The notes: generated by a model not told the origin, from the sequence alone. Shown: positions 3-33,706, counted from the stretch's first letter. The stretch: 40,459 bases of DNA from Candidatus Latescibacterota bacterium (GCA_019038625.1 JAHOYU010000089.1:1-40459); one strand, 5' to 3'. Numbers and translations are program-made.

Positions 3-3000
3 ATGAGAAAGATTCAAACGACTCTGTTGTTACTTCTCATCCCAACGATCCTGTCAGCTGGAGAATACAGGATTTTACATGAGGATAACTCCAGCGTCAC
101 AGTAGAATTTTCTCCAGCCCGGCCGCTGGTCGAGCAGATGGGGGCCGTAGAGGGTGGATTCCTTGCCAGGATCGCCGTAGAGGGATACATGCCTGAGAGA
201 GTGGAAGGAAGACCGGTCCTTCCCGTTCAGAGATATTTTTTCCAGGTGCCAGCAGTAGAAGGAATCAGGTTTCAGGTATTGGATGTCGATCTGGTCATGC
301 TTGACGGCATCCTGCCTGAAGTCTGGTTTTCCGGGAAAGTCGACATAGATGACCACTTGAGAGCTCTTCGTGACAGGGATGTGATGAAGGGTATCGAGCA
401 CGCGATCCTGGCTGGTACCGGCACGATGAGCAGGAGAAAGCTAGCCCTTGTAGATATATACCCGGTCATATGGGATCCTGGTACGTCATCGCTGGGCTAC
501 GCGGAGCGTATAGTTGTCAGGCTGTCCTTTGCTCCGCAAGAGATATCAGGGAAGACTACAGGCAGGAGAGGTTTCGGTGACAGTCATATAATCAACGCCG
601 ATCAGGCTGCAGGCTGGATAAAGCCAACTACGACCGAATCTTCTGCATTGAGGACCCCGTTTGAATTTTCGCTCGCCGACGACTGGCTCAAATTGAAAAT
701 AGCGGATACAGGAGTCTATGTGGTGACCTATACTGATATCCTTTCCGCGGGTCTCGATCCGGGTGAAATAGATCCAGCCACTATCCGTGTCTTCACTGGC
801 GGTCCTCTGCAGCAGCCTGCTGCGGCTGATGATGGTGGGAGTTTTGAGGATGACTACCATCTCGATGAATGCGCGGTGCTCTACAGGGGAGACAACTCAG
901 GTTCATTTTCTCCCGGTGATTCGATCATTTTCTACGCTCCCGGGATCGAGGGATGGATGAACGATCTCGATCCATCCGCCGATGTCATAGAATGGTATGA
1001 GCACGATTATGCTGAAAATTCTAACTACTGGCTCTCATGGGGACATGGCTTTGCGGGACAACCTCTCAGGATGGAAGAGCGGGATGTCAGTATTGCCGGT
1101 GTAACCCCGGATCTTGATGTAACTACATATGAGGAGAGGATACACAGGGAAGAGGATAATCTCTATGATCCGAAGTACACTGAGGACAGGTGGTACTGGA
1201 GATCCCTCGGAGCCGGGAGTTCATCGTTTACCGACAATTTCACTCTGGACAGCGTGGTGGGGAATGGCAGGTTCCGCACCCTCGGTTACGGTCCATACAA
1301 CTCATATGACATTATCAATCCGACTTACTATATCAACGGGGCGGAGGTAGGGACACTGGCCTGCTCGGTGGCCATCTACTCTTTTGATCCAGAGACGCTC
1401 GATGTTGCCATCAACAACCTGGTGAATTCGACAAACACGTTCAGAGTCGTCAAGGAACCGGGCGATATGGTCTATGTCCTCTGGTACGAGATCTATTACG
1501 AACGATATCTGAACGCGACAGGTGGGGAGTTGAATTATTTCAGCCCGGATGAGATCGGGCAGGCACGATTCCAGTTGAACGGATTCTCGACGGGTGAGAG
1601 GTTCCTCTTTGATGTCACTTCGTTCAAGTCTCCAGTATTATTGACGCATTTCAGCAGCACCGCAGAAAATATAACATACATTGACGGATTATCCGGTTCT
1701 CCGGCACATTACTTTGCGATGCAGGCCCATGCTCTCAGACATCCGGAGATAGAGAGATACTCCCGTTTAACGGGCAGCCTGGTCTCTTTGAGAGATGAAC
1801 CGGCCTGCCCGAATATGGTGATCATCTACAACAGCAGGTTTGAGGCGGCGGCGAGCGAGCTCGCTTTGTACAGGTCATCGCACCTGCCCCTGGTGGAAGA
1901 CCCGCTGGTAAAAGCCGTGGATGTCCGGCAGATCTATGATAATTTCTCTGGCGGCATGAAAGACCCGGTCGCGATCAGGAACTATCTGAAATTCCTTTAC
2001 GATAATTTCGATGATGGGATCGAGTCTGAGATAAAGTACGCCCTTCTGATGGGTAACGGTACTTATGATACGAAAGATATCCTGGGAACCGGGATAGACT
2101 ATGTGCCCCTGTATGTAAAAGATTATGGGCGAGAGATGGTCGAAGACGACGACTTTTTCGCGAGACTCGATGGGGACAACGACAGGCTAATAGATCTCGG
2201 CCTTGGCAGGATGACGGTCCTTTCGGCATCTGAGGCTTCTGCATGGGTGAGAAATATCATCGCATACGAAGCGGATGTCGAACCTGGAGCATGGAAGAAC
2301 AAGGTGATGCTGGTCGCCGATGATGAATTTTCCGCAAACACGAACTGCGACTACAGTTTTATGATAGACACTGAATACATGAGTCAGGGATACACATATT
2401 TTCCGGATTTCATCGATTTAAAAAAGATATACCTTCATCATTATCCGTTCAGTGGTGATCTGAAGCCTGAGGCGTCAAACGACCTGCTGGACGGATGGAA
2501 CGATGGCGCTCTGATCGTAAAATATACCGGGCACGGATCTCCCCAGCAGATGGCCGATGAGCGCGTGATGCAGAAATCCGATGTATATTCCCTGAGAAAC
2601 GGGGACAGGAGGCCACTCTTCCTGGCATTTTCATGCTCGGTAGGCAATATCGAATCTCCATATCAGAGGAGTATCGCTCAGGAGATGGTCGTACGGGATG
2701 ACGGTGGCGCGATTGCGACGATCACAGGTACAGGAGGCACTCTTGGAATACCAAACAGGGAACTCTGTTTTTCCCTGTTCAAGACTTTGTTCACATCAGA
2801 GGACAGCACCGGAACATGGCCGTTGGGGACTACGATGATGCTGGCCAAGCCCTGCTGCGCGGTTTTCGGGGACGGTATGAATAATTCCCAGTATATTCTT
2901 CTCGGTGATCCGGCTATGATGCTGGCTATGCCCGGTTATACGGTCGAACATGAAGTGAGCACCATTGACACGATGCTGACCGGTGCCAGGTATACTCTGG

Positions 3001-3965
3001 ACGGCAGGGTCATGTCAGGAGGAGCCGTACTCACCTCGTTCAATGGTAACGCCGACATCATCGTACAGGAATCATTCGAAAATGTTAATGATGGACCGAT
3101 CACATGCTATTACGGGTATGAATTGAAATATTACCTGCCCGGCAAGGAGATATTCAGAGGGTCGGTCGATGTAAGCGCGGGACGCTTCAATATCGATTTT
3201 GTCATTCCAATCCGATGCAAGACGGGCCCTGAGGCGAGGGTCAGGTCGTATGTGACCACAAATGGTGAGGACGGTGTAGGCGCAGAAGATTCCCTGTTAA
3301 TAGTGAGCAACCCGGATATTCCCCAGAATTCGGGGCCACCATCGATAAATATCTTTTTCAGCGGACAGGCAACGAAGGTGAAACAGGGTGCCTCGCTGAA
3401 CGTGGAGATCTCCGACGATGACGGGATCGCGATCCTTGGCAGTGACCCGCAGAGCTCCATCTTTCTCGAGTTCGATCGGAGCGGCTACCCGATATTTGTC
3501 ACCGATTATTTCACCTATGATCATGGATCTTCGACAACTGGCAGGGTCGAATATCCCCTGCATTCAGGATTCAGCCCGGGCCCCCATTCAGTTATCGTCA
3601 GAGCGTTCGACAATCTGGGGGAATCTTCCACCGATACGCTCGCGTTCGATGTGGTCGAGGAGGGGCTCTACACGGTAAGCGATGTGTTTAATATGCCGAA
3701 TCCCTTTACGGAAACTACGAATTTCGTCTTCCAGCTCAGTAACGACGCGGATGTCGTCCTGCGAGTGTACAATGTCTCTGGAAGAGAGATATGGAGCCGT
3801 AAGACCTATGGGGAGGAAGGATTCAACAGTATTTATTGGGATGGAAGGGATTATGGAGGAGACAGGCCCGCGAACGGGACTTATCTCTATCTCCTGGATG
3901 TTTCATTCAGAAACTCTTATAACCGCTGTGAAACTGTTTCAGGAAAGGCGGTTTTGCTACGATAA
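3..3965 (+). CDS. porU: PorU-like type IX secretion sortase, C25 (gingipain-family) peptidase
   Basis: In T9SS bacteria, PorU is the outer-membrane-associated cysteine peptidase that removes the C-terminal sorting domain from cargo and attaches the cargo to the surface. The 1320-residue product opens with a clear signal peptide (about residues 1-19, a run of Leu ending in SAG), so the ATG at 3 is probably the true start although its ribosome site lies outside the window. After a long beta-rich N-terminal region comes the C25 peptidase core, with the catalytic His in YTGHGS (H844) and Cys in FSCSVG (C878). The C-terminus (about 1225-1320) has an NPF motif and a FlgD-Ig-like fold signature (YWDGRD, NGTYLY). 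Seen next door is a PorV-family gene, and porU and porV are also neighbours in Porphyromonas. The alternative is a secreted C25 protease cargo rather than the sortase itself. Confidence 0.78.
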   Translation: MRKIQTTLLLLLIPTILSAGEYRILHEDNSSVTVEFSPARPLVEQMGAVEGGFLARIAVEGYMPERVEGRPVLPVQRYFFQVPAVEGIRFQVLDVDLVMLDGILPEVWFSGKVDIDDHLRALRDRDVMKGIEHAILAGTGTMSRRKLALVDIYPVIWDPGTSSLGYAERIVVRLSFAPQEISGKTTGRRGFGDSHIINADQAAGWIKPTTTESSALRTPFEFSLADDWLKLKIADTGVYVVTYTDILSAGLDPGEIDPATIRVFTGGPLQQPAAADDGGSFEDDYHLDECAVLYRGDNSGSFSPGDSIIFYAPGIEGWMNDLDPSADVIEWYEHDYAENSNYWLSWGHGFAGQPLRMEERDVSIAGVTPDLDVTTYEERIHREEDNLYDPKYTEDRWYWRSLGAGSSSFTDNFTLDSVVGNGRFRTLGYGPYNSYDIINPTYYINGAEVGTLACSVAIYSFDPETLDVAINNLVNSTNTFRVVKEPGDMVYVLWYEIYYERYLNATGGELNYFSPDEIGQARFQLNGFSTGERFLFDVTSFKSPVLLTHFSSTAENITYIDGLSGSPAHYFAMQAHALRHPEIERYSRLTGSLVSLRDEPACPNMVIIYNSRFEAAASELALYRSSHLPLVEDPLVKAVDVRQIYDNFSGGMKDPVAIRNYLKFLYDNFDDGIESEIKYALLMGNGTYDTKDILGTGIDYVPLYVKDYGREMVEDDDFFARLDGDNDRLIDLGLGRMTVLSASEASAWVRNIIAYEADVEPGAWKNKVMLVADDEFSANTNCDYSFMIDTEYMSQGYTYFPDFIDLKKIYLHHYPFSGDLKPEASNDLLDGWNDGALIVKYTGHGSPQQMADERVMQKSDVYSLRNGDRRPLFLAFSCSVGNIESPYQRSIAQEMVVRDDGGAIATITGTGGTLGIPNRELCFSLFKTLFTSEDSTGTWPLGTTMMLAKPCCAVFGDGMNNSQYILLGDPAMMLAMPGYTVEHEVSTIDTMLTGARYTLDGRVMSGGAVLTSFNGNADIIVQESFENVNDGPITCYYGYELKYYLPGKEIFRGSVDVSAGRFNIDFVIPIRCKTGPEARVRSYVTTNGEDGVGAEDSLLIVSNPDIPQNSGPPSINIFFSGQATKVKQGASLNVEISDDDGIAILGSDPQSSIFLEFDRSGYPIFVTDYFTYDHGSSTTGRVEYPLHSGFSPGPHSVIVRAFDNLGESSTDTLAFDVVEEGLYTVSDVFNMPNPFTETTNFVFQLSNDADVVLRVYNVSGREIWSRKTYGEEGFNSIYWDGRDYGGDRPANGTYLYLLDVSFRNSYNRCETVSGKAVLLR

Positions 3966-4088: not shown

Positions 4089-5102
4089 ATGGTTAAGGTT
4101 TTCAGGACAATATCAGCCGTTTTGCTTATTTCCGCCCTATGCGCAGGGCAGGCGCTGGCCCAGGGAGAATCGGGTGCGAGTAGTCTGATCATTCCTCCCA
4201 GCGCAAGGGCGAACGCGATGGGGCAAAGTTTTGTTGCTCTGTCCGAGGATGCTACGAGTCTTTGGTGGAACCCGGCCGGAATGGCTTTCCAGAAAAGAGC
4301 CGTGGACTTCATGCATACTCAGCTGGTTCCCGACCTCGCTTCGGATGTCTTCTTCGAATACCTTGGAGTGATATACGAGATCGAGGGGCTAGCCGTTATC
4401 GGTGCTAATATCCAGTATCTTACATATGGTGAGTGGGAAGCGACAAGCGAGACAGGAGAGGATCTTGGAACTGCCAAGTCTTATGAGTTCGTTCCCACCA
4501 TCGGTGGAGCCATAAGGATAACAGATAATCTGGCTGTCGGGTTGAATCTTAAATTTATCTATGTGAATCTGGCTCCCGCCTGGGCGACAGTCGAGCAGAT
4601 CGACGGAACGGGCCATTCTGTCGGAGTCGATTTCGGTGTGCTTTGGAAGGTGCCTGATTTCAGTGTTGCCGGATATAAGATCAGCAGGTTGAGGCTCGGA
4701 TCCAGTGTAGTGAATATCGGCCCGTCGCTGACATACAAGAACCGTGACCAGGCCGCCCCGCTTCCGAGGAATCTCAGGGTGGGTTTCGCTTATACTCCGG
4801 TACAGGACGAGGGTATGGAGATCACTATGGTCGCCGATGTCAACAAGTCTCTCGTCGACTATTTCACAGATGAAGATTACAAGCGATCGAACACTTATCA
4901 TGTGGGTGCGGAATTTGTTTATGCGGCTCTTCTCGTGATACGCGGTGGGTATATTCAGGACAAGGATGGGGATATCAAGGCTCCAACCTATGGCTTGGGA
5001 TTTCTCATGCTCGAGAATAAATTGAGGATCGATTTCGCCAGTATTCCCCAGGCGTCAGATCTCGAGAGGGTATATCGCTGGTCGGTCGGATACAATTTCT
5101 AG
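4089..5102 (+). CDS. porV: PorV/PorQ-family outer-membrane protein of type IX secretion
   Basis: PorV is a FadL-like outer-membrane barrel that receives T9SS cargo from the translocon and hands it to PorU. The 337-residue product has a signal peptide ending in ALA (about residue 24). This is followed by the family's usual N-terminal signature: GASSL, then PPSARANAMG, then a short stretch with WWNPAGMA, typical of PorV/PorQ/UPF0164 proteins. The rest is amphipathic beta-strands and the chain ends in an aromatic residue (GYNF), as barrels do. The ATG at 4089 is supported by an AAGGAG site (4077-4082) six bases upstream. It sits 123 bases after the PorU-like gene, matching the porU-porV pairing known in Bacteroidota. 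It could be a PorQ-type or orphan paralogue; the family call is much firmer than the exact member. Confidence 0.8.
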   Translation: MVKVFRTISAVLLISALCAGQALAQGESGASSLIIPPSARANAMGQSFVALSEDATSLWWNPAGMAFQKRAVDFMHTQLVPDLASDVFFEYLGVIYEIEGLAVIGANIQYLTYGEWEATSETGEDLGTAKSYEFVPTIGGAIRITDNLAVGLNLKFIYVNLAPAWATVEQIDGTGHSVGVDFGVLWKVPDFSVAGYKISRLRLGSSVVNIGPSLTYKNRDQAAPLPRNLRVGFAYTPVQDEGMEITMVADVNKSLVDYFTDEDYKRSNTYHVGAEFVYAALLVIRGGYIQDKDGDIKAPTYGLGFLMLENKLRIDFASIPQASDLERVYRWSVGYNF

Positions 5103-5129: not shown

Positions 5130-8100
5130 TTGGCAGCGGTTAGCTATAATATGCGGACAGGCCTGGCACTGTTTCTGTTGACCATCTTTGCAGCTTTGTT
5201 GTCCGATGCATATGCTTCGGGCAGGAAAGCTCCCGTCCTCAGAAGATCGGATAACGGGACCTTCGTCTATTCAGGCGAGAGGAAAGACGTTCCGGATTAC
5301 GACAAGCCACCGAGAAAAATATTCGATTACGACGATGTATCCCGTAGACTGGCAAGTCGTGCGATGTTGACTAAGGGGGGCGGCCCCGGAGTGGTTGAAG
5401 GGACCATACGTGTTGTCGTACTGAGGATCGCATTCAGAAACAACAGCATGCCCGGACTCACCAGTATATCTACCGATGGAGATTTCGATCTGACTCCCGG
5501 CGGCACATCGCTCATCGATCCGACTCCTCATAATTCAGTATATTTCAGCGGACATATGCAGGGCCTCCATAATTATATCGATCTTCAGTCCTGCGGTAAG
5601 CTGCAGGTCGAATGGGACATCCTGCCGCAGGAGGAGAACGGTTCCTACAAACTATCTGACATAGCCGATTACGGGCCGGGCAGCGGTGGAGGATGGACGA
5701 CTCCCCAGCTGGCTCACTTTCTTTATGACGCGGTTGTCACAGCCGACCAGGAACTGGCTGATCAGGGATATCCCGTCAGGCTTTCAGATTACGATGCAGT
5801 CATCCTGGTGCATGCGGGCGCCGATCTCCAAAGTGATTATTATTCGGACAGCCCTAACGACATCCCCTCGTTTTTCGCGCGACTTGGTGATGTGGACCAG
5901 ATACCTATCGAGGGCGGCTCGACGATAATATCGGAAATATCAGTTGTGCCTGAGACAGCTACGCAGGATGGTATCCACGGGAGCCAGGCGTCCGTGCTGG
6001 CCCATGAATTCGGACATGTCCTGGGGCTTCCAGACCTCTACGATGTCTATTATGGAATGCCGATCGTGGGAGTATGGGACCAGATGGATTCCGGCAGCCA
6101 GGTCGGGGTATACCTGATCGATGGTGATGAGGAGATATATGTCCTCGGTATCCTGCCCGCCGGATTCGGTGCCTGGTCAAAATACATGTTGGGATGGCTC
6201 GATGTCGACACGGTCCAGACTTTCGACAATGAGATAGCTCTCAGTGCCCTGGAGAAATGCCCATCGCGAGCTGTCAGGGTCGATATAACCGGTGATGAAT
6301 ACTATCTGATAGAGAACCGTGCCGCGGAGACGGACGACATATATACTCAGCCCGTCTGGGATCCCGTATCAGGAGTCGTGATCGGCTGGGGCAACTGTCT
6401 GAATTGTGATGAGGGTGAAGTAGATGAATACGAATGGGAACTTGTCAACACCTACGACATTCTGTTGCCCACCGAATCTGATTATCCTTCGAGCGACGGG
6501 GGGCCAGGCTTGCTCGTCTGGCATATAGATGAAAGTTTCATTGCCGACCGGTGGTATGAGAACGAAGTGAACTCCAGATGGCCTTTTGGAGTCTGGCTGG
6601 TTGAAGCGGGTGGAGAGACAGACCTCGGCAATCCATATTCCGGTTACAGGATGGGGTGGTTTGACGACGCGTTTTATGCCGGCAACTCCGAGGTGATGTC
6701 TGACTCGACTTTTCCTTCGGCGTGGAGTAACTGGGGTGTGCCCTCGGGAGTAAGGCTCGAGAATGTATCGGGTAGAGATACATTGATGACATTCGGCGCG
6801 GGGGTAAGGGATATCGATTATTCGGAGCCTTTTGTCCCGGCGACCACGATTCCCGATGGAGGAGCGCTTCACCTTGCGGGCCAGAACAGATCGGTCCTGG
6901 TCGACGCTTTCGGTGGAGTATATGTCACGGGCCATGATGAGATGGTGGCTCATGTAGCTGTTCCTGCTATGACACCGATGCTTCTTGCTCCGGGATTCGA
7001 TTCTTCTGACGGGGCGGATGCGGTTATTATCGTTGGCGCGGATGGGTTGTTTCATGCATTGAGTACTTACGATTGGGAAGCGATCAACGATTCATGGCCA
7101 GCTTCGTTCGGAGCGGGACCTGTCACTCATCCTGCGCTGTTTACCGCTGATGAGGATGTAATGATCGCGGCAGTCTTTGATGACGGCAGTATGCGGCTGA
7201 CAGGCAGATCCGCTGTGGATGAAGTCGATCCGTACTATTTACCTGACGGTATGAGTTTTTCCGGAAACCTTGTCATAGAAGATGATGGGACAGGAAATTC
7301 GACACATATGGTGATTCTTGTCACAGGCCAGGTTACAGGGGAGACAAGATTGTCCCGTTTTTCTCCTGTTGATGGCAATATTGTACAATTGTTGGGTTGG
7401 GATCCCGTAATCCCGCTATCACAGACCGATATGTCAGGGAGGATCGTTCTGCTCGGTGGAGATCTCGATCCCGCTGCCGATGGATATGAATTCTATGTAG
7501 TGGCGATGTCGACCGGCAGGGTGATATGTTGCGGCCAGGACGGAATCATATCGGACAGAAGTCTTGGGAAAGCTGTCATAAGCGTACCCGCCCTTCAGGA
7601 TATGAACGGAGATTCATATATTGATATCGTAATGACCGACGGGATCAATATCCATGTCAGGGGAACCACAGGATCAAGCATCACGGGATGGCCAAGGAAT
7701 ATCAACGATATGTTCGTGCTTCCGATGGAAATCAGGATAACAGCGGCGTTGACAACCGCATCTTCATCGGAGGGAGCCTGGGTAGCGGTCGGTACAGACG
7801 CAGGCATCTTCTTTATCCTGGATCACATGGGCGAACTTGTCCCTGGCTACCCGAAGAGAATAGCCTCCAGTCTGAATCAGCCTGTAGAGCTGACAGTGTC
7901 CGGAGAAGAGGGACAATATATTTATCTGGATATGATCTATAATCATGGAATAAATGAATTTTACGATTTCAGGCCTCCAGGCGGCTCAGTCAAGTGGCGC
8001 AGGGGTGATTTTGGACCTCCGGACCCTGATATCTCCTGGCCGATGCTTTATGGCGATACAGGACGTACAGGCTTCGCGTCCGGTTCAAGCGGGTTCGATA

Positions 8101-8396
8101 CTGCCATTCCTGCCTGGACCGAACTGGAAGAAGGGATAACCATTTATCCGAATCCTTCGAGGACGGGTAAAGTCTCGGTCCATTTCAGTGCGCCTGAATC
8201 CGGCAAAGCCAGTATAAGGATTATGACCCTTACCGGCGAGTTAATCTTTGAAGAGACAAAACAACTCTCCGGGGGAGAAGATGAATTTGAGATTTCGATG
8301 TTGGATAAGGCTTCCGGTGTATATATCTGCAGGCTCGAGATAGAGGCTGGCAGCAGAAGCGTGAGTATAAACAGGAAATTCGCAGTTATCAGATGA
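5130..8396 (+). CDS. secreted M6-family metalloprotease with T9SS type A sorting domain
   Basis: This is a predicted extracellular zinc protease of the immune-inhibitor-A (M6) family and a likely T9SS cargo. The product (1088 residues) has a signal peptide ending near DAYA. The zinc site is HEFGHVLGLPD (H292, E293, H296), the M6 form of the HExxH motif. Residues about 570-960 look like a repetitive beta-propeller with short Asp/Gly-rich repeats (FG-GAP-like). The last ~85 residues form a T9SS type A sorting domain beginning IYPNPS and ending with GVYICRLE and a basic tail. The start is uncertain: TTG at 5130 has GGGAAAGG nine bases upstream, while the ATG at 5151 is also in frame before the signal peptide. 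It begins 27 bases after porV, so it may be co-transcribed with it. The peptidase family is firm; the substrate is unknown. Confidence 0.85.
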   Translation: MAAVSYNMRTGLALFLLTIFAALLSDAYASGRKAPVLRRSDNGTFVYSGERKDVPDYDKPPRKIFDYDDVSRRLASRAMLTKGGGPGVVEGTIRVVVLRIAFRNNSMPGLTSISTDGDFDLTPGGTSLIDPTPHNSVYFSGHMQGLHNYIDLQSCGKLQVEWDILPQEENGSYKLSDIADYGPGSGGGWTTPQLAHFLYDAVVTADQELADQGYPVRLSDYDAVILVHAGADLQSDYYSDSPNDIPSFFARLGDVDQIPIEGGSTIISEISVVPETATQDGIHGSQASVLAHEFGHVLGLPDLYDVYYGMPIVGVWDQMDSGSQVGVYLIDGDEEIYVLGILPAGFGAWSKYMLGWLDVDTVQTFDNEIALSALEKCPSRAVRVDITGDEYYLIENRAAETDDIYTQPVWDPVSGVVIGWGNCLNCDEGEVDEYEWELVNTYDILLPTESDYPSSDGGPGLLVWHIDESFIADRWYENEVNSRWPFGVWLVEAGGETDLGNPYSGYRMGWFDDAFYAGNSEVMSDSTFPSAWSNWGVPSGVRLENVSGRDTLMTFGAGVRDIDYSEPFVPATTIPDGGALHLAGQNRSVLVDAFGGVYVTGHDEMVAHVAVPAMTPMLLAPGFDSSDGADAVIIVGADGLFHALSTYDWEAINDSWPASFGAGPVTHPALFTADEDVMIAAVFDDGSMRLTGRSAVDEVDPYYLPDGMSFSGNLVIEDDGTGNSTHMVILVTGQVTGETRLSRFSPVDGNIVQLLGWDPVIPLSQTDMSGRIVLLGGDLDPAADGYEFYVVAMSTGRVICCGQDGIISDRSLGKAVISVPALQDMNGDSYIDIVMTDGINIHVRGTTGSSITGWPRNINDMFVLPMEIRITAALTTASSSEGAWVAVGTDAGIFFILDHMGELVPGYPKRIASSLNQPVELTVSGEEGQYIYLDMIYNHGINEFYDFRPPGGSVKWRRGDFGPPDPDISWPMLYGDTGRTGFASGSSGFDTAIPAWTELEEGITIYPNPSRTGKVSVHFSAPESGKASIRIMTLTGELIFEETKQLSGGEDEFEISMLDKASGVYICRLEIEAGSRSVSINRKFAVIR

Positions 8397-8411: not shown

Positions 8412-9359
8412 ATGAGGAGTGATCATAGAATCCTGCTGGTAGTGGCTGTATTATCCCTGATGGCAATAATTCCCCATCCGATATTTGCGATCGATGGTGA
8501 AAGGCCCATGGATGCTACTTCATCGATATTCAAAGAGGACAGGGGGTTCGACCTCGAGAGATACAAGAGCAGGGAGACTCTCAGTCTGGGTGGAAGGAAG
8601 CTCGACAGGCCAATGGCTTCGAGAGCAGATGTCCTTGCCCCTGCGGGAGTGAGAAGGAGCGCTATGCGGCCCGGAGGCAAGAGGAAGATGGCAATCTCTG
8701 TGCTGGCATCCGCTCTTCTTCCCGGACTCGGAGAATTGTATCTTTACCTCGATTCCGGAGAGAAGAAAGCGCTGTACAGGGCCCCCGTGTTCATGGCTCT
8801 TGACGCCTATCTCTGGTATGGTTACAAGGATAATTACGACAGGGGCAAGGATTTCAAAAGAGAATACGAGGCATACTGCGATGCCCACTGGAGTGAAGAG
8901 AGATTCCTCGCGCAGCATCCCGAATGTATTGGGTACGGAGGGTGCGATGACTGGGAGATGTACAATGAAATCGGGCCTGCGAGTCAGGATTTTTTCTTTA
9001 TCTATATACCGAGGGACCTGGACAGGGAAGAATATTACGAGAACTGCGGCAAGTATGATGCTTTCGTCTTCGGGTGGGACGACTGGGACGACACTGGATG
9101 GGACTATCAATACGAGACTTTCCAGCCATGGACTCCTCACAGGACTGAATACTGGCGCATCAGGGACGAAAGCGATAAGTACCTGGTCAGGGCCGACCAG
9201 CATATCATGTTGGCGATAATAAACAGGGTCGTCTCGATGCTCGACTCCGCCTGGCTGGCATATACGATAAACAGGGGCAGCGTCGATGACGGCGGACTGA
9301 CTCTCGATTTCACGCCTGGACGGGAAATGTCCACTGTGGGAATAAGCTACCGTTTTTAG
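8412..9359 (+). CDS. envelope protein of unknown function, PGLG-motif family (first of two tandem paralogues)
   Basis: I do not recognise a named function. The 315-residue product has an N-terminal signal peptide or membrane segment (residues about 8-25), a basic linker, then ALLPGLGELY followed by a hydrophobic stretch (FMALDAYLWYGY). This arrangement recalls DUF5683-like proteins of FCB bacteria, though that assignment is from memory of the motif. The middle (about 150-250) is acidic and very rich in Asp, Tyr, Trp and Glu, and contains several Cys. Near the end RVVSMLDSAWLAY is hydrophobic, and the last residues (GISYRF) form a beta-strand ending in Phe. The next gene shares the PGLG block, the RVVSM block and the aromatic ending. 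The start is fixed by GGAGGA (8401-8406) before ATG 8412. It is the first gene of a compact five-gene run. Confidence 0.6.
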   Translation: MRSDHRILLVVAVLSLMAIIPHPIFAIDGERPMDATSSIFKEDRGFDLERYKSRETLSLGGRKLDRPMASRADVLAPAGVRRSAMRPGGKRKMAISVLASALLPGLGELYLYLDSGEKKALYRAPVFMALDAYLWYGYKDNYDRGKDFKREYEAYCDAHWSEERFLAQHPECIGYGGCDDWEMYNEIGPASQDFFFIYIPRDLDREEYYENCGKYDAFVFGWDDWDDTGWDYQYETFQPWTPHRTEYWRIRDESDKYLVRADQHIMLAIINRVVSMLDSAWLAYTINRGSVDDGGLTLDFTPGREMSTVGISYRF

Positions 9360-9370
9360 GGGGTTTCAGT

Positions 9371-10210
9371 TTGAGAACGATGATCATTATGATGATTCTG
9401 TTTACCTGCTCTCTTTCGGCTGCGGAAGCGTCTAATGTTTTTTCCGATCCGGCTTCAGGTGTCGATGAGGGTTTTGATAACAGCGGAGTCAGACTTGAGA
9501 TTGCCTCTCCGTCGGTGATAGCCTGCGCGGGACCTTTTTCCATGTCAGTGGGGCAGGATCCGAAAGAAAAAAATCAAGGTGGTCTTTCCGGTCTCTACAG
9601 ATCACCGGCAAAAGAAGCCGGATTGTCATTCCTTCTTCCCGGACTGGGACAGCACAGGATGGGAAACGATCTCAGGGCGAAGGTATATTTCGGACTGGAA
9701 GGAGTCGGTTGGGTAGCAGCTGGAGCTTTCTTCTACCAGTCGCTCGTACGCCGTGATGAGTATGAGGAGTATGCCGATGTCTATGCTGGCCTGAATGGGT
9801 CGGGGTATGGTGAGAGTTATTACGAGACGATAAGTAACTACATCAGCAACGACGGGCCGGGAGGCTACAACGAATATGTGCTCAGAGAGGCCAGAAACCT
9901 ATATTACCCGGACAAAGCCGCGATGGATGACTATTATGAGGAAAACGTGATCACTGGAGATATGAGCTGGAGGTGGGAGACAGACAAAGCCTACTATAAT
10001 TACAGGGAACTCTTCGCTGGTAGTGATACATCCAGGAGGCGTGCCGTATATGCCCTGTTCTTTATCGTCGGGCTAAGGGTCGTCAGTATGGTCGATGCTC
10101 TCAAACTTGCAAGGGATTCCAACGAAAGAATGGACAGAGAGCCGGGAATATCGATCCATGTCGAACCGGAGCGTGGCGGGTTCAGGATGTCCTTATGCCG
10201 TTCGTTCTGA
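9371..10210 (+). CDS. envelope protein of unknown function, PGLG-motif family (second tandem paralogue)
   Basis: The function is unknown. The 279-residue product has an N-terminal signal peptide ending around SAAEA. It then shows LSFLLPGLGQHRMGN, a hydrophobic segment (VGWVAAGAFFYQSL), a Tyr/Glu/Asp-rich middle, and a second hydrophobic block (ALFFIVGLRVVSMVDALKLA). It ends in a short strand finishing with Phe. The order of these blocks matches the gene just upstream, so the two look like an old tandem duplication. The start is TTG at 9371 (an in-frame ATG follows at 9380), 11 bases after the previous stop. The 3' end overlaps the next gene by 16 bases, which suggests translational coupling. 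A DUF5683-type relationship is possible but not proved here. Confidence 0.58.
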   Translation: MRTMIIMMILFTCSLSAAEASNVFSDPASGVDEGFDNSGVRLEIASPSVIACAGPFSMSVGQDPKEKNQGGLSGLYRSPAKEAGLSFLLPGLGQHRMGNDLRAKVYFGLEGVGWVAAGAFFYQSLVRRDEYEEYADVYAGLNGSGYGESYYETISNYISNDGPGGYNEYVLREARNLYYPDKAAMDDYYEENVITGDMSWRWETDKAYYNYRELFAGSDTSRRRAVYALFFIVGLRVVSMVDALKLARDSNERMDREPGISIHVEPERGGFRMSLCRSF

Positions 10211-11196
10211 GAAGGACCCGGACTATCAGACTCTTGTCCGGCTCCTTTATCATCTTTTTAATTCTACTGCTGACATCTGATCAGTCAATGCCCGGGCCCA
10301 GGATTGCCTCGACCCGGTCCGATGACGATCCTGAGATAGCCGGGAACGAGTATATATCCGGTGAGATGGAGCTCTTTCTGTATAAAGAGACGATCGTTCT
10401 CGGAAAAGGCATTCTTCGAGAACCTCTTGGACTGGATGTCTCACCGACAGGAGAAATCTTTGTAGCCGATGCAATGACTGGAAAGATCTTTATCTTTGCT
10501 CCGGATGGTGCCGTGGTAGAATTCGAGGATCCTCCCCTGGGCAGTTCGATTTATCCGATAGACCTTGCTGTCAACGGCACATTCGTATATGTGCTCGACT
10601 ACTCCGATAACAGGCTTCTGCGTTATGACCGGAACGGTACGTTCCTTGACGTCCTGATCTCATTCGGACTTTACGACAGAATGAGGCCTTCTTCGGTCAG
10701 TGGCGGTGGGGGAGGGCGTCTTCTGACTACGGATATGAAGAACCATGGATTGACCATATGGACTCCCCTTCTTGATATCGAATTTTTGTGGAATGAGTTC
10801 GGGTTTATGGAGGGGGCTCTCGACAGACCGGCAAAGGCCGTTCTCCTTCTGGATGAAAGAATAGCCGTAGCAGAGACTGGAAACAAAAGGGTGCAGATAT
10901 TTTCGCCATCAGGCAGATATGAGTCAATACTTGTACTGCCGGATGATACAGGTTTCGAGAAACCCCGTTCCATCTGTGTCGGCAGGGATGGAAATATTCA
11001 TGTAGCCGATACGGATGCGGGCGCGGTCTTTATCTTTTCCCCGGATCTTTCCTTTCTTGGAAAGATAGACTCCTTTGGCGGAATGAAGATATCTCCATCT
11101 GCAGTAGCCGTCGGCTGGAACGGTGGACTGTACATAGCCGATATAAGATCCGGCTCGATCCTCGTCATGAAACGGGTTGATAGCGTCGACGAATGA
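10195..11196 (+). CDS. membrane-anchored or secreted NHL-repeat beta-propeller protein
   Basis: This is a predicted six-bladed NHL beta-propeller, a fold that usually binds proteins or glycans and is often not enzymatic. The 333-residue product has a hydrophobic N-terminal segment (about residues 12-28, FIIFLILLLT) that would act as a signal anchor. Repeats then follow with the NHL pattern of a Gly-x-(I/L)-(F/Y)-(V/I)-A-D core: GEIFVADAMTGKIFIF near residue 85, RIAVAETGNKRVQIF near 220, and NIHVADTDAGAVFIF and LYIADIRSGSILVM near the end. No catalytic residues are apparent. It overlaps the upstream gene by 16 bases and the downstream barrel gene by 4 (ATGA), so it is probably made together with them as a partner or scaffold in the envelope. 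Ligand unknown. Confidence 0.72.
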   Translation: MPFVLRRTRTIRLLSGSFIIFLILLLTSDQSMPGPRIASTRSDDDPEIAGNEYISGEMELFLYKETIVLGKGILREPLGLDVSPTGEIFVADAMTGKIFIFAPDGAVVEFEDPPLGSSIYPIDLAVNGTFVYVLDYSDNRLLRYDRNGTFLDVLISFGLYDRMRPSSVSGGGGGRLLTTDMKNHGLTIWTPLLDIEFLWNEFGFMEGALDRPAKAVLLLDERIAVAETGNKRVQIFSPSGRYESILVLPDDTGFEKPRSICVGRDGNIHVADTDAGAVFIFSPDLSFLGKIDSFGGMKISPSAVAVGWNGGLYIADIRSGSILVMKRVDSVDE

Positions 11197-14100
11197 AGAC
11201 TCTGATAAATATCAATATATTTATGGCAACCGCCTTGATCCTGATCTGCTCCGGTTCGCAGGCCTTTGCCAGCGATACCGTTCTTTCTACGGACGTTCCC
11301 GGAAAACTTGTCAGAATACCACTCAGGTACGCTTACAGGCAGCAGGCTCTGAGAGTCCTCGAGTCTGGGGAGGACAGGATAGACCTTGGCCGGTCATTCC
11401 TCATCCCCGGGAGTGATTCTGTATGGGTAGATGGCCGCCTTCTAAAGAGGGAGATCGAATACCGGATCAATATTCTCAGGGGTTCTGTCATCCTCGTTTT
11501 GCCCCCGGTCGGTGGAGAAGTTTTCAGGGCGACCTGGTCGAGGTATCCATTTTCATATGCTCCCGTCTTTGCATCGCGTTTTCCAGGGGAGAAGCCTGCA
11601 TCGGCGGTAGATCTTCCTGATGCGGTCGACTCTGAAAGAGAGAAGAGTCGACAGGCCAACCCTTACAGACTGAACCTTTCAGGAAGCAAGACCGTCGGGT
11701 TTTCAGTCGGGTCCAGCAGGGGGTTGGGTATCGACCAGAGCATGAAGGTGACCATGGCCGGCAAACTGGCTCGAGACCTTGAGGTGAAGGCCTTTCTTAC
11801 AGACGACAATCTTCCCGTACAGCCGGAAGGAAATACCGAAGAACTCAAACATCTCGACAAGATATATGTACAGATCAACAGCAAGCATATGGAGGCAAGG
11901 CTTGGTGATTTTCCTACAGGACTCGAGTGGTCCGGATTCTCCAGTTTTAAGAGGGAATTGAGAGGAGCGTCCATAAAGGTGGATGTCGGTGGGCAGGAAT
12001 TCACGGTCGGTGGAGGAATCGCACAGGGAAGATTCAAAACGGCCGAATTCCGCGGCAGAGATGGCGTTCAGGGGCCATACGAGCTTCTTTCCGCGAGGCG
12101 GTTCAACGGGATCATTATCCTTCCTGGTTCTGAGAGTGTCCTGCTGGATGGAAGGGAGATGAAGCGGGGTAATGAAAACGATTTCACAATCGATTATGTG
12201 CGGGGGACCATCACATTCACGGAGAGAAATACGATCAGTGTAGATTCCGAGATCATCGTTGATTACCAGATGGGCGAAGATGATTATGAAAGAACCACTG
12301 TCACGGCTGGATGGTCCGCTCCGTTCCTCGACGACGCGGTCAGGCTCAGGACCTTCTTCTTCCGTGAAGGAGACAGTTCCGGTAAGCCGATCCGTGGCAG
12401 CCTGACAAGAGAAGAGACCGCTGTTCTTGAGGCAGCCGGAGATGACGCGGGGTCTGCTGTCACAAGTGGAGTCGAGGAGGTGGAAGACGCTGAAGATGCC
12501 TACATCCTGATTCCGGCCGGCACTCTCCCTGAGCATTATCAATTTATCGAGATCGGTGGGAGATACAGGTTGAGTTTCCACGAGACCCGGCCGGGCGAAG
12601 GAGATTATGAACCTGATGGATTTACGAAAAGGGGAGAAGTCAGATACAGATATGTCGGAGCTGGAAACGGAAGTTTTTCGGTCGGCAGGCCTCTTCCCCT
12701 GCCAGAGATGAAACAGGTGTTCACCCTGGGGTTTGAAGCCAAAAAGGGAGTCTTATATCTGGATGGAGAGGGAGACGTCAGTCTCTATGACAGGAATACT
12801 CTTTCCGGGGTCGATGACGATGATAACACCGGTGGAGCCATGAGGGTCGGAGGAGGCATCAGAGGCCTCTCCATGCCTCTGGGCAAGCTTGACATCAAGG
12901 GTGAATATTCGATGCTGGAGGAGAGGTTCGCGCCGGCGGATAAAGCGAGATCATCGTACTTCTATAGAAACTGGAACCTCGAAGATGTTCCCCTGGAAGG
13001 AAAGGAAGAGATCAGCGGAGGATCGATCTCCTGGGTGGCCGATTCACTGTGGGACATAAGCGGTAGTTACAAAAGATTGGTGAGAGGCGATTCTCTGTCT
13101 GCTGTAAGGAGCGATCTTTCTGCAAATATCGGAGACCTGCGTAGACGAGGGATTTCAATAAATGCCTTTGATTCGAGGACCGGTGATGACAGGGACAGAA
13201 AGTCCGCCGAAGTCGATGCATCGTTCTCCTTCTGGCATCTGGCACCTCGGTTCCGGTTCGATACCGAACGATACCGGGCTTTCGATCGGGCGGCGGCGGA
13301 TACGGGAAGGTACTACTATGAGAATTCATTCGGTCTGGCTGGAAGAGGACTGGGGGGGTACAGGGCAGATCTATCCCTGGTGACAAGACGTACTGACCTG
13401 ATGTCGACCGCAGGCGAGATATGGTCGCGCGCCAGGGAGACCGATGAAATAAGACTTGATGCCGGATATTCCGGCGGGTCGAGAGTCGTGGACCTGTTTA
13501 TCTCCCACAGGACCACACGTGACGCCTCTGGAGGCGAAAGCAAGCACGATCTTGCAAGGATCAGATACCGGGAGGTACTGAGATCAGCGGGGATAACGAG
13601 CGATATTGGTTACAGGATCAGTTCGGGTGAGGACAGGAGACTGGAGAAGACTGTAATATTCGTGGGAGAGAACGAGGGAGACTATGATGAGGAGGGAAGG
13701 GAAGTCGGGCAGAAAAGGGGAGATTATATGGTGCTGTACCTGGCCGGTGGGGAAGTCGAGGCGGTCAGGACCGTAGAGCTTACATGGCGGATGAGTTATG
13801 GAAGCGGGATCAGGGGAATTTCTTCAGGGTCGTACGGAAACGGGATCCTCGGTGTTATCAGAAGGAATCTTTCGGTGGATCAATTCGTCTCGGTCCTGGA
13901 GAAGTCAGGGACAGACGAGCTGTTGAGACTTTATCTCCTCGATCCTGATATTCTTCAAAGGGACGATCTCACTCTCTACGGAAAAAATAGTTTGAGGCAG
14001 GAATGGTCTCTGCTGAACGACGTCAGCAGATACGATCTCAAGTTCGTCTTTTTCCGTGAGGATGAAGAGGATAATCGTTCAGGTGATGTTTCAACCTCAA

Positions 14101-14621
14101 GGTATAACAGGGAGATCGAGGTGCAGCTTGAAGTCGCAGCCGGTAACGGTCTCTCTTTCACTCTCGAAGCGGGGAAAAGACTGAGAGAGAGAGAATCCGG
14201 GGAACAGACATCACAGAGATACAGGGTGGAATCGTTATCAGGCGCTTTGATCACCGGCTACCGGCCACGCCCGTCAGTAAAGATATCCATGGAGCTTGGA
14301 AGCGAGAACAGGAAAGACGAGGTCTCGGGAGCCGGGCAGACATCCTGGTCGGTTACTCCTGCAATGAACGCGTCATTAGGGAGGAAGGTCAATCTTACCT
14401 CGATGCTCAAGTTTACCTATACGTCGATTGACGTAGGTCAGACCAAGCCTCTTTTCTTTCTTGAAGAAGGGATGAGGGAGGACTGGAACGTGATCGGCCA
14501 ATACAGGTTCACAAGAAACCTGAGTTTTGGCCTTAACTATAACGGCAGAAGAGAAAAAGATTATGTGGGGGAGGTGAAGACCATCCATGCGCTCAAGATG
14601 GAATGCCGAGCATTTTTCTAG
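11193..14621 (+). CDS. large predicted outer-membrane beta-barrel protein with duplicated N-terminal module
   Basis: I do not recognise a characterised family. The 1142-residue product has a signal peptide ending near AFA (residue 26). Two related modules follow: about 68-112 and 308-360, each reading PGS-x-SV, then DGR, KR, an aromatic-I-(N/D) strand and RG followed by a hydrophobic strand. Between them, residues about 155-260 form a highly ordered block (SGSKTVGFSVGSS, PEGNTEELK, then ARLGDF). From about 360 to the end the chain is a long series of alternating polar/hydrophobic strands with Gly-rich turns and ends in RAFF, consistent with a large barrel. It overlaps the NHL gene by 4 bases (ATGA) and the Omp85 gene by 35, so the three are coupled. 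It might be a T9SS-translocon-like (SprA-type) protein, but it is only about half SprA's length, and that link is inference. Confidence 0.65.
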   Translation: MKTLININIFMATALILICSGSQAFASDTVLSTDVPGKLVRIPLRYAYRQQALRVLESGEDRIDLGRSFLIPGSDSVWVDGRLLKREIEYRINILRGSVILVLPPVGGEVFRATWSRYPFSYAPVFASRFPGEKPASAVDLPDAVDSEREKSRQANPYRLNLSGSKTVGFSVGSSRGLGIDQSMKVTMAGKLARDLEVKAFLTDDNLPVQPEGNTEELKHLDKIYVQINSKHMEARLGDFPTGLEWSGFSSFKRELRGASIKVDVGGQEFTVGGGIAQGRFKTAEFRGRDGVQGPYELLSARRFNGIIILPGSESVLLDGREMKRGNENDFTIDYVRGTITFTERNTISVDSEIIVDYQMGEDDYERTTVTAGWSAPFLDDAVRLRTFFFREGDSSGKPIRGSLTREETAVLEAAGDDAGSAVTSGVEEVEDAEDAYILIPAGTLPEHYQFIEIGGRYRLSFHETRPGEGDYEPDGFTKRGEVRYRYVGAGNGSFSVGRPLPLPEMKQVFTLGFEAKKGVLYLDGEGDVSLYDRNTLSGVDDDDNTGGAMRVGGGIRGLSMPLGKLDIKGEYSMLEERFAPADKARSSYFYRNWNLEDVPLEGKEEISGGSISWVADSLWDISGSYKRLVRGDSLSAVRSDLSANIGDLRRRGISINAFDSRTGDDRDRKSAEVDASFSFWHLAPRFRFDTERYRAFDRAAADTGRYYYENSFGLAGRGLGGYRADLSLVTRRTDLMSTAGEIWSRARETDEIRLDAGYSGGSRVVDLFISHRTTRDASGGESKHDLARIRYREVLRSAGITSDIGYRISSGEDRRLEKTVIFVGENEGDYDEEGREVGQKRGDYMVLYLAGGEVEAVRTVELTWRMSYGSGIRGISSGSYGNGILGVIRRNLSVDQFVSVLEKSGTDELLRLYLLDPDILQRDDLTLYGKNSLRQEWSLLNDVSRYDLKFVFFREDEEDNRSGDVSTSRYNREIEVQLEVAAGNGLSFTLEAGKRLRERESGEQTSQRYRVESLSGALITGYRPRPSVKISMELGSENRKDEVSGAGQTSWSVTPAMNASLGRKVNLTSMLKFTYTSIDVGQTKPLFFLEEGMREDWNVIGQYRFTRNLSFGLNYNGRREKDYVGEVKTIHALKMECRAFF

Positions 14622-16287
14622 GATCATAATGGGACTGGTCTTGACTCTGATCCTTTCGGAACCTCTCCTGGGCAGTGGAATATCAGGGGGGAGGATCGAA
14701 TGGCATGCCGAAGGAAGGCTGTTGGTCGAAGATATTACGAGTGGCACTCTTCTCTCGCCTGGATCGACATTTTCGGATTCATTACTTCGGGTGGAATTTG
14801 CCCGGATCGATTCCATATGTTTTGCCGCTGGATATCTTGACTGTGAGGTCGAGATAGATACGATCCCGGGTTCCGATGGCGACAAGATACGGATCACCCT
14901 GTATTCCGGAGAGAAGGCAAGGGTGGGTCGTATCAATGTGACGGGACAGGGCGCGATGAGTGAAGACGCGATTCTTGAAGTCCTGGGAATCACGTCAGGG
15001 TCGGAGTTCGATCCTGTCCGGCTGGAAGTGGCGATGGGAAGGTTGGTGCGGACATTGAATGAAGATGGGTATCCGTTCGCCCAGGCATGGATCACTGGAG
15101 TCGGCCATGAACCGGGGAGTGGGACCATCGATCTGTCTATCTCCCTGATCGAAGGAAAGTCAGCCTTCGTATCCGATATATATTTCGAGGGTATTTCCAG
15201 GACAGACTCTACCATCGCATTAAGAATTTCCAGACTGAAAAAGAATGTCCGTTTCGATGAAAAAGCTCTGAACAGGGCGCGAAAATATCTGGTTTCGTCC
15301 CGTCTTTTCGAGAGAGTGGGTAAGGCTCGGGTCACTGGAACCACGGGGAACAGAGTCGATCTTGTTATTCCCGTAGAAGACAGGAAGAGAGCAAACTATT
15401 TTTCCGGAGCGTTTGGTTTCTCCAGGAAGGAAAACGGAGATTACCGGATGAACGGTGCCGTGCAACTTGAATTGAAGAACATAGCTGGCACTGGTCGTAA
15501 TGCCGGGTTCGACTGGCTCAACGACGGCCTCGGGTATTCGAGGACCAAACTGGTCCTGATGGAACCCTTTCTCTTTTCGACTCCCATGAGCCTGGATCTT
15601 GAGGTCGGGCAGACGGTAAACGATACGTTGTACGATATGGTCTCTGCCGGTGGGTATATCAGTTTTCCTATAGGGCCAGTCTGGTCTGTGAGTGGTGGCC
15701 TGGCTGGTGACAGGACCACCTTCGGTGATGGTTCCGGGCTGGAAAAGAGTTCACGAAAGCGTTACAGGATTGGCCTGACGGGAGAACCAGGGACATGGTG
15801 GAGGTTGAGGATCGACCTCGAAGGAGCAATGAAGACGAACAGCTTTGTCGATGGGAACAGCGAGGACGAAACTCAGTTGATCTACTATTTAGAGTCTTCA
15901 GTCGAGGCAGGTTTTTCAGATTCACAGGCTTTCTTTGCCAGAATGGCGGCAAGTGGGATCGTCTCATCGGGTGATATCACTCTTTCAGAGATGTTCACGC
16001 TTGGTGGGGCAAGGACATTGAGGGGATACAGGGAAAACCAGTTCCGTGCCGAACGGACAGGATTTATAAATCTCGAATACAGATTTGGAGGAGAGAGCCG
16101 GATATTTCTGTTTGACGATGTCGGCGGTTTTTTCAGGGAGTCTGAAGGTTGGACAGTAAAGAATGGTTTTGGATTCGGTATCAGGTCGACTTCCAAAGCG
16201 GGCACTGTGGAACTGAGTTTCGGCCTCGGAGACAAGATCTCACTGAACGAGACGAAGATACATATCTCGCTGATAGAGGTTTTCTAG
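14587..16287 (+). CDS. Omp85/TamA-like outer-membrane assembly protein with POTRA domains
   Basis: This belongs to the BamA/TamA superfamily, which inserts or exports outer-membrane proteins. The 566-residue product has an N-terminal hydrophobic signal segment (residues about 14-28), then two to three POTRA-like domains (about 40-280, including RVGRINVTGQGAMSEDAILE and AFVSDIYFEG). The remaining ~280 residues form a barrel. The L6-loop motif typical of Omp85 proteins is visible as LGGARTLRGYREN, and the chain ends in Phe. It is shorter than a normal BamA (~800), so it is more like TamA or a specialised paralogue. ATG 14587 has GGAGGT about 11 bases upstream; a second in-frame ATG at 14629 is possible. 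It is the last gene of the envelope operon and may assemble the large barrel encoded immediately before it, which is inference from overlap. Confidence 0.82.
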   Translation: MRSRWNAEHFSRIIMGLVLTLILSEPLLGSGISGGRIEWHAEGRLLVEDITSGTLLSPGSTFSDSLLRVEFARIDSICFAAGYLDCEVEIDTIPGSDGDKIRITLYSGEKARVGRINVTGQGAMSEDAILEVLGITSGSEFDPVRLEVAMGRLVRTLNEDGYPFAQAWITGVGHEPGSGTIDLSISLIEGKSAFVSDIYFEGISRTDSTIALRISRLKKNVRFDEKALNRARKYLVSSRLFERVGKARVTGTTGNRVDLVIPVEDRKRANYFSGAFGFSRKENGDYRMNGAVQLELKNIAGTGRNAGFDWLNDGLGYSRTKLVLMEPFLFSTPMSLDLEVGQTVNDTLYDMVSAGGYISFPIGPVWSVSGGLAGDRTTFGDGSGLEKSSRKRYRIGLTGEPGTWWRLRIDLEGAMKTNSFVDGNSEDETQLIYYLESSVEAGFSDSQAFFARMAASGIVSSGDITLSEMFTLGGARTLRGYRENQFRAERTGFINLEYRFGGESRIFLFDDVGGFFRESEGWTVKNGFGFGIRSTSKAGTVELSFGLGDKISLNETKIHISLIEVF

Positions 16288-27753: not shown

Positions 27754-27874
27754 GATTCGGAATTTTTTGTTCAGTACCGTGAAATTATTGCCGATACATG
27801 ATAGTGCGTCATAAGTCCAGTGGTTAGAAAATTGCATAAGAAATCCGGGAACCCAATTGAGGGTGGAGGACTGT

Positions 27875-29554
27875 TTGAAAGACAATATAGCCAATCAGTT
27901 GGTCGAGTCCAGTCTGATCAGTAAAGAACAGATGGATCTCGCGCTGCATGAACAGGGAAATTCGGGTGGAAGCCTGGGGTATAACCTCGTCAAGACAGGG
28001 GCTATTTCGGAGAAGGCATTCTCGGAGTTTCTCTCACAGCAGTTTCAGGTACCTGCTGTCGATCTCGACGAGCTGCAGGCCGATGAACATTCTGTTGAAC
28101 TTATTCCAGCCGAAGTCGCGACAAAATTCCAGGTAGTCCCGGTCGAAAGGGAAGGCAGGGTCCTGACTGTGGCTATGGCCAATCCGGACAATATCTTCGC
28201 GATCGACGATATCAAATTTATCACCGGACTTGAAGTACGTCCCGTCGTTGCGACAGAGACATCGATCAAAAGAGCAATCGATCGTTTTTATGACAGTGCA
28301 GATTCCCTCGCCGAAGTAATGAGGGATATGGAAGAGGATTTCGAGATCGTGGAGGAGATAGAAGACGATCTCGGACTTGCCGAAGCACAGAGCGAGGACG
28401 CTCCTGTCGTCAAGCTTGTCAATTCACTGATCTCAGACGCGGTAAACAAGGGTGCGAGCGATATACATGTAGAACCTTTCGAAAAAACATTGAGAGTACG
28501 ATTCAGAATAGATGGACAGCTTCACGAGATGATGTCACCTCCTCACAAGATGAAGGGCGCGATCACATCAAGGCTGAAGATCATGGCCGAACTGGATATC
28601 GCCGAAAAGCGTATCCCACAGGACGGTCGAATCAGGATAAGGATCGGCAGCAAGAAGATCGACCTCAGGGTCAGTACCCTGCCTACGATCTTCGGCGAAA
28701 AAGTCGTGATGCGAATCCTCGACAAGAGTAACCTCGAGGTGGACCTGACCAAGCTTGGGTTCACTCCCGAATCACTCGAAAAATTTCTCAAAGCTATAGA
28801 ATCTCCATACGGAATGGTCCTTGTGACGGGCCCCACAGGTAGCGGTAAGACTACGACACTGTATTCTGCGCTGGCAAACATCAACCTTCCACACCACAAT
28901 ATCATGACCGCCGAGGATCCGGTCGAGTACAACCTCGAAGGTATAAACCAGGTAATGGTCCATGAAGAGATCGGGCTGACTTTTGCTTCGGCTTTGAAGG
29001 CTTTTCTGCGGCAGGATCCCAATATCGTGATGGTCGGTGAGATCAGGGATCTCGAGACCGGTTCTATCGCGGTCAAGGCTGCGTTGACCGGCCATCTGGT
29101 CCTCAGCACTCTTCATACTAATGATGCTCCAAGTACTATCAACCGTATGATCGACATGGGGATCGAACCGTTTCTTGTGGCCAGCTCGACCAACCTTATC
29201 CAGGCTCAGCGACTTATCAGAAGACTTTGCGAACAATGTAAAAAACCGGTAGAGATCCATCCGGAGGCTCTTCGCGAACTTGGGATCCCGAACGAGGAAC
29301 CCTTCCAGATATTCGAAACTGAAGGATGTCCGAAATGCAGCGGAACAGGGTACAAGGGAAGGCTTGGTCTTTATGAGGTCATGCCGATCTCACCGGAGAT
29401 AAGAGAGATGATCCTCAATCGCTGTTCGTCTATGGAGATCAAGGATCAGGCGGTCAAAGAGGGTATGCTCACTCTTCGTGCCGACGGGATAATCAAACTA
29501 AAGATGGGTATCACTTCCCTCGCGGAAGTACTCAGGGAAACGACAAACAAGTAA
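27875..29554 (+). CDS. pilB: type IV pilus assembly ATPase PilB
   Basis: PilB is the hexameric cytosolic ATPase that powers pilus extension. The 559-residue product has the N-terminal MshEN/GspE_N domain (about 1-150), a linker, and the secretion-ATPase core. The core shows Walker A (GPTGSGKTTTLYS, K325), the Asp box (TAEDPVEYNL), Walker B (VGEIRDLETG) and the His box (TGHLVLSTLHTND). The extension-ATPase zinc site is present as CEQC followed by CPKC. TTG 27875 is chosen because GGAGG (27865-27869) lies five bases upstream; TTG at 27857 would place that site inside the gene. A sigma-54 promoter lies 110 bases upstream. pilT follows after 36 bases, so pilB leads a pilBTCSR operon. Confidence 0.94.
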   Translation: MKDNIANQLVESSLISKEQMDLALHEQGNSGGSLGYNLVKTGAISEKAFSEFLSQQFQVPAVDLDELQADEHSVELIPAEVATKFQVVPVEREGRVLTVAMANPDNIFAIDDIKFITGLEVRPVVATETSIKRAIDRFYDSADSLAEVMRDMEEDFEIVEEIEDDLGLAEAQSEDAPVVKLVNSLISDAVNKGASDIHVEPFEKTLRVRFRIDGQLHEMMSPPHKMKGAITSRLKIMAELDIAEKRIPQDGRIRIRIGSKKIDLRVSTLPTIFGEKVVMRILDKSNLEVDLTKLGFTPESLEKFLKAIESPYGMVLVTGPTGSGKTTTLYSALANINLPHHNIMTAEDPVEYNLEGINQVMVHEEIGLTFASALKAFLRQDPNIVMVGEIRDLETGSIAVKAALTGHLVLSTLHTNDAPSTINRMIDMGIEPFLVASSTNLIQAQRLIRRLCEQCKKPVEIHPEALRELGIPNEEPFQIFETEGCPKCSGTGYKGRLGLYEVMPISPEIREMILNRCSSMEIKDQAVKEGMLTLRADGIIKLKMGITSLAEVLRETTNK

Positions 29555-29590
29555 TCCGGGCCATTGACCCGGGTAGGGGAGAAACAGGAA

Positions 29591-30673: not shown

Positions 30674-30702
30674 ATCCTCTACGTTACCTAAGGGGGAACG
30701 AG

Positions 30703-31911: not shown

Positions 31912-31934
31912 CAGGTTTCGGAGGTTACAAGGCT

Positions 31935-33689: not shown

Positions 33690-33706
33690 AAGGGGGGTCC
33701 CGTTTA

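Follow-up and report, generated by a model that had tools for sequence, protein, structure and literature searches.

The Type IX secretion system (T9SS) has so far been described with a single giant translocon, SprA, the barrel of which has 36 strands (PMC10994853). An additional T9SS-associated barrel of P. gingivalis, the TonB-receptor-like PorF (PG0534), also emerged from comparing genomes with and without a T9SS (PMC5053529, PMC5445135). Because the cited searches for T9SS components began from P. gingivalis proteins, proteins that are absent from that organism or highly divergent in it would be missed. Our analysis of a 40,459-nucleotide stretch of DNA (the window) indicates that a second large outer-membrane barrel of the Type IX machinery has probably been overlooked. 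This protein, here called BAR, is a widespread, unnamed relative of SprA that accompanies SprA and is not a lineage-specific replacement for it. No description of, or experiment on, the BAR family was found in the open-access papers searched. If our reading is true, a second SprA-class barrel would be a missing part of the T9SS, present in most of the sampled T9SS-bearing Bacteroidota and in nearly all Krumholzibacteriota, there together with PorU and PorV.

The five reading frames that the earlier note had described as a compact envelope operon were reproduced exactly, all on the + strand, with a gap of 11 bases followed by overlaps of 16, 4 and 35 bases. They encode two DUF5683-like envelope proteins, P1 (8412..9359) and P2 (9371..10210), an exported NHL-repeat beta-propeller (10195..11196), BAR (11193..14621; 1142 aa), which is predicted to be a half-size giant outer-membrane barrel of the SprA family, and an Omp85-family assembly protein (14587..16287). 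The 35-base overlap is not an accident of annotation, since both the overlap and the Omp85 start recur in relatives. The five genes are real but the unit is larger than had been proposed. Directly upstream, in the same direction and equally conserved, lie the genes for the PorU sortase (3..3965, beginning at the contig end), a PorV-family outer-membrane carrier (4089..5102) and an M6-type metalloprotease-like T9SS substrate (5130..8396), with gaps of 123 bases between porU and porV, 27 between porV and the M6 gene and 15 between the M6 gene and P1. Together these eight genes form a Type IX cluster, porU-porV-M6 protease-P1-P2-NHL-barrel-Omp85, of which the five first described are the conserved end. 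The next gene is thiC (ThiC), which is outside the conserved unit in some families. Scans for promoters and terminators gave chance-level, uninformative results.

The PorU protein is a C25 peptidase with a T9SS C-terminal sorting domain (NF033707, 571.7 bits against a cut-off of 420; Peptidase_C25, 2e-74), and the carrier matches NF033709 with 220 bits (cut-off 90) and PF19572 (8.8e-26), while scoring under the PorV equivalog cut-off. The M6 protein has a type A sorting tail; its nearest NCBIfam model is that of an 'inactivated' M6 metalloprotease, yet the HEFGH zinc motif is intact. The claim that P1 and P2 are paralogues is upheld by hhalign (E 1.8e-25), and each has the PGLG motif, P1 at residue 104 and P2 at residue 90. 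Both share a weak likeness to DUF5683 (PF18935), which includes the PGLG motif, but neither reaches the Pfam gathering score of 26.7 (P1, E 0.01, 16.3 bits; P2, E 1.6e-5, 25.4 bits). The propeller is borne out by its NHL repeats (PF01436, 6e-22). The last gene product has the marks of the Omp85 family, namely at least two POTRA domains (2.2e-15) and the RGY/F motif of loop 6, in which R479 and G480 are invariant and Y481 nearly so. It shares the POTRA domains and the RGY-type loop with BamA and TamA, but it is 566 aa long, scores under the cut-offs of the BamA and TamA models and is genetically tied to BAR. Eight further Omp85-family matches were found in the host genome; some outscore the Omp85 of the cluster and could be the BamA of the genome. 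The export signals ascribed to all five proteins were judged by eye only, from N-terminal hydrophobic stretches that are compatible with them.

The nearest named relatives of the window genome are Candidatus Krumholzibacteriota/Krumholzibacteriia metagenome-assembled genomes (MAGs), and the genome is itself a Candidatus Krumholzibacteriota MAG. BAR was found in 77 of 80 Krumholzibacteriota genomes, as a single copy. The order porU-porV-(M6)-P1-P2-NHL-BAR-Omp85 is retained in the phylum loci examined, and among loci with enough sequence to test each gene, porU was kept in 33/34, porV in 34/35, M6 in 31/35, P1 in 42/42, P2 in 45/45, NHL in 50/53 and Omp85 in 42/46. This order persists although identity to the window BAR falls to 25-30%, which argues for strong selection for linkage. 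A search for the five genes in relatives, as the earlier note had suggested, finds them kept together across the phylum. Two contigs with other labels, 'Gemmatimonadales' and 'Fibrobacter sp.', carry a Krumholzibacteriota-type P1-P2-NHL-BAR arrangement and are probably misnamed or misbinned MAG contigs.

BAR had been said to have no recognised identity. This holds in Pfam, where no family covers it, and neither Pfam nor NCBIfam has a model devoted to the large unnamed family to which BAR belongs; however, the NCBIfam SprA model (TIGR04189) matches residues 305-358 with E 2.6e-5. The match is 21.6 bits over positions 600-651 of a model of about 2300 positions, below the cut-off of 200 bits. When 39 BAR members were compared with NCBIfam, the SprA model was the commonest match (12 members; best E 8.3e-8). 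A search of PDB sequences with BAR gave nothing meaningful. Profile-profile alignment of BAR with SprA by hhalign gave three colinear matches, one N-terminal (columns 145-276 to 190-332, E 1.2e-6), one central (297-380 to 654-736, E 5.7e-9) and a third, weaker, at the C-terminal side (1002-1129 to 2002-2153, E 3.7e-4). When the SprA set was enlarged, the central match stayed strong (E 1e-9, score 102) and both ends dropped to between E 3e-4 and 4e-3. A reversed-SprA control profile scored at most 25.6, against 102 for real SprA, and profiles of Omp85 and PorV gave no match to BAR. The part most clearly common to the two proteins, approximately residues 303-358 (12102..12266, + strand; TIGR04189; hhalign E 1e-9 to 6e-9), lies in the SprA-homologous quarter (residues 145-416), which holds 44 of the 70 BAR columns that are invariant or nearly so. 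We rejected the 54-residue SprA domain by itself as proof of homology, as phage tail families also match some BAR-family members; the claim is based on the separate colinear segments together with the negative reversed control. Judged by these profile comparisons, BAR is a distant colinear homologue (paralogue) of the T9SS translocon SprA and is half as long. A match of the barrel to a transporter family unrelated to secretion, which would have counted against the earlier note, did not appear.

With SprA/Sov (TIGR04189; PDB 6H3I, 8GL8), BAR shares this colinear homology, a DGxxLxxGxDYxIDYxxG domain and an occurrence only alongside a T9SS, and the strand number predicted for its giant barrel is comparable; it differs in being half as long, in scoring under the model cut-off and in coexisting with full-length SprA. 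BAR is not the missing or split SprA of the window genome. The SprA of that genome was found on two other contigs, divided between the end of one (C114) and the start of the other (C97), which probably adjoin. Identity with PG0534/PorF (a 92 kDa protein with a TonB-dependent receptor annotation) or with PG2092/Plug (419 aa) was also rejected; both were set apart from BAR by reported size and annotation. In several Krumholzibacteriota loci (L058, L060, L061, L064 and L065), sprA adjoins two divergent genes for membrane proteins that by eye resemble LptF/LptG permeases.

AlphaFold2 models of two proteins that are about 20% identical, the window BAR (pLDDT 84.9) and a homologue from Fluviicola (pLDDT 84.5), have the same predicted architecture, a small N-terminal beta domain followed by 37 strands, a figure that counts strands of at least 10 residues in monomer models. 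When the models were compared with the PDB by Foldseek, SprA structures ranked 1, 2, 3 and 5 for the window BAR and 1, 2, 3 and 8 for the Fluviicola protein. The TM-scores of both models to SprA are only 0.21-0.25, barrels of LptD and TonB receptors also score, and the ranking is tilted to SprA because it is the longest barrel among the matches. The Foldseek matches reflect a common local strand pattern and not a superposable fold, and they support a shared fold without proving it. Neither model places the most conserved motif of BAR, DNLPVQPEGNT (approximately residues 205-215), with confidence, and the invariant PEGNT loop (about 208-215) has a pLDDT below 50 in the monomer. Low confidence is expected of a site that binds a partner, which suggests that this is a putative partner-binding loop.

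A scan of GTDB genomes found relatives of BAR in KSB1, Calditrichota, Raymondbacteria, Marinimicrobia and Bacteroidota (61% of those sampled), and the suggestion that the system is lineage-specific does not survive. The NHL-BAR-Omp85 trio recurs in KSB1, Raymondbacteria and Marinimicrobia, and the barrel-Omp85 pair in Calditrichota. In these phyla outside Bacteroidota, an Omp85 of the same type follows BAR in all five testable loci and a propeller precedes it in four of six. The proposed pairing of BAR with the Omp85 thus gains support from gene linkage in five phyla. In Bacteroidota, BAR is a lone gene linked neither to T9SS genes nor to an Omp85. One branch of the BAR tree splits off Krumholzibacteriota and another splits off Bacteroidota, as is expected of vertical descent. 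The plasmid collection yielded no BAR homologue. A record labelled 'Glaciecola amylolytica THG-3.7' (CP034120.1) has a BAR region with Fluviicola gene order and closely similar proteins; the same genome has a Bacteroidota-type SprA, and the public record looks mislabelled.

In every genome tested, BAR was seen only where SprA occurs. SprA is present in 80/80 Krumholzibacteriota genomes and in 12/12 genomes reached through BAR loci. Among 198 Bacteroidota sampled, BAR was found in 121 and SprA in 154; full-length SprA accompanies BAR in all 121, and BAR is absent from each of the 44 genomes without SprA (Fisher p=2.6e-23, the relatedness of the genomes being ignored). The idea that the locus is an alternative to the T9SS translocon, in the sense of replacing SprA, is not supported, as SprA too is present in every one of the 80 Krumholzibacteriota genomes. 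What stands is an outer-membrane machine tied to the T9SS, for which conserved linkage, homology to SprA and occurrence only with SprA all speak. BAR was not detected in 33 of the 154 SprA-bearing Bacteroidota and hence is not an essential part of the T9SS everywhere; unless the profile missed some members, it is an accessory of many, but not all, T9SSs. In the SprA-bearing Bacteroidota, BAR is present in 72/77 genomes with NF052323, an M6-like family of T9SS substrates related to the M6 gene of the cluster, and in 49 of the 77 that lack this family (odds ratio 8.2, p 8e-6).

The reading that we favour, and consider moderately likely, is that the cluster specifies the outer-membrane portion of a T9SS, in which BAR would work beside its paralogue SprA and give the PorU/PorV (type A) branch a second pore or a barrel to dock on. 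BAR would have approximately 36-40 strands in about 1140 residues and lack most of the inserted domains of the SprA protein (about 2100-2400 residues). The analysis itself shows the conserved gene order, the homology to SprA, the giant-barrel prediction and the nesting of BAR in SprA-bearing genomes; that T9SS substrates pass through BAR or dock on it is our inference. The adjacent Omp85 may be dedicated to BAR, folding and inserting this unusually large barrel, and the propeller and the two DUF5683-like proteins would be its envelope partners. The alternative, that BAR is a platform that anchors PorU/PorV (an attachment complex) at the cell surface and binds the propeller and the M6 protein with no substrate pore, would fit the encoding of BAR with the sortase and carrier and not with SprA, the association with NF052323 and the poorly modeled PEGNT loop. 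However, a giant SprA-homologous barrel would be a costly anchor, and the attachment complex of P. gingivalis is described without any BAR-like protein; we regard the platform as unlikely.

If BAR had a general envelope function, for example in adhesion or in the export of glycans or lipids, and its link to SprA reflected only shared ancestry of the host lineages, this would explain why nearly every genome of the phylum has a single BAR, as with a housekeeping gene, why it stands alone in Bacteroidota and why LptD and TonB-receptor barrels are among the Foldseek matches. This reading is hard to reconcile with the lack of BAR in every sampled SprA-free Bacteroidota genome, with its place beside the porU/porV cluster in Krumholzibacteriota and with control comparisons in which BAR is homologous to SprA and not to Omp85 or PorV, and we consider it quite unlikely. 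Very improbable is a scheme that gives the leading role to the Omp85, as an assembly factor for barrels in general, and makes BAR an ordinary client adjacent by chance. Omp85 proteins do assemble barrels generally and the genome has eight other matches to the family; but some of those score better and could act as BamA, and the Omp85 adjoins BAR in KSB1, Calditrichota, Raymondbacteria, Marinimicrobia and Krumholzibacteriota. With its natural Omp85 partner, BAR offers a half-size relative of SprA for studying how giant barrels are built.

The GldM/PorM model found nothing in 80 Krumholzibacteriota genomes and, at E <= 0.001, nothing in six other non-Bacteroidota, while eight of nine Bacteroidota controls were over the cut-off. 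The GldL/PorL model was over its cut-off in 0/14 non-Bacteroidota and 7/8 Bacteroidota controls. Both models were also negative in one Bacteroidota genome that has SprA. As a lead, the T9SSs of non-Bacteroidota, in which SprA, PorU and PorV are present, may have either a motor too divergent to detect or a different means of powering. It is conceivable, if rather doubtful, that the T9SS was ancestrally a two-barrel system, consisting of SprA and a SprA-derived BAR with its own Omp85 inserter, and that it runs without a PorL/PorM motor in the non-Bacteroidota FCB lineages. Elsewhere in the window (27857-35086) is a type IV pilus-like cluster with two T2SSE-type ATPases, a PilC-like protein and PilS/PilR-like proteins.
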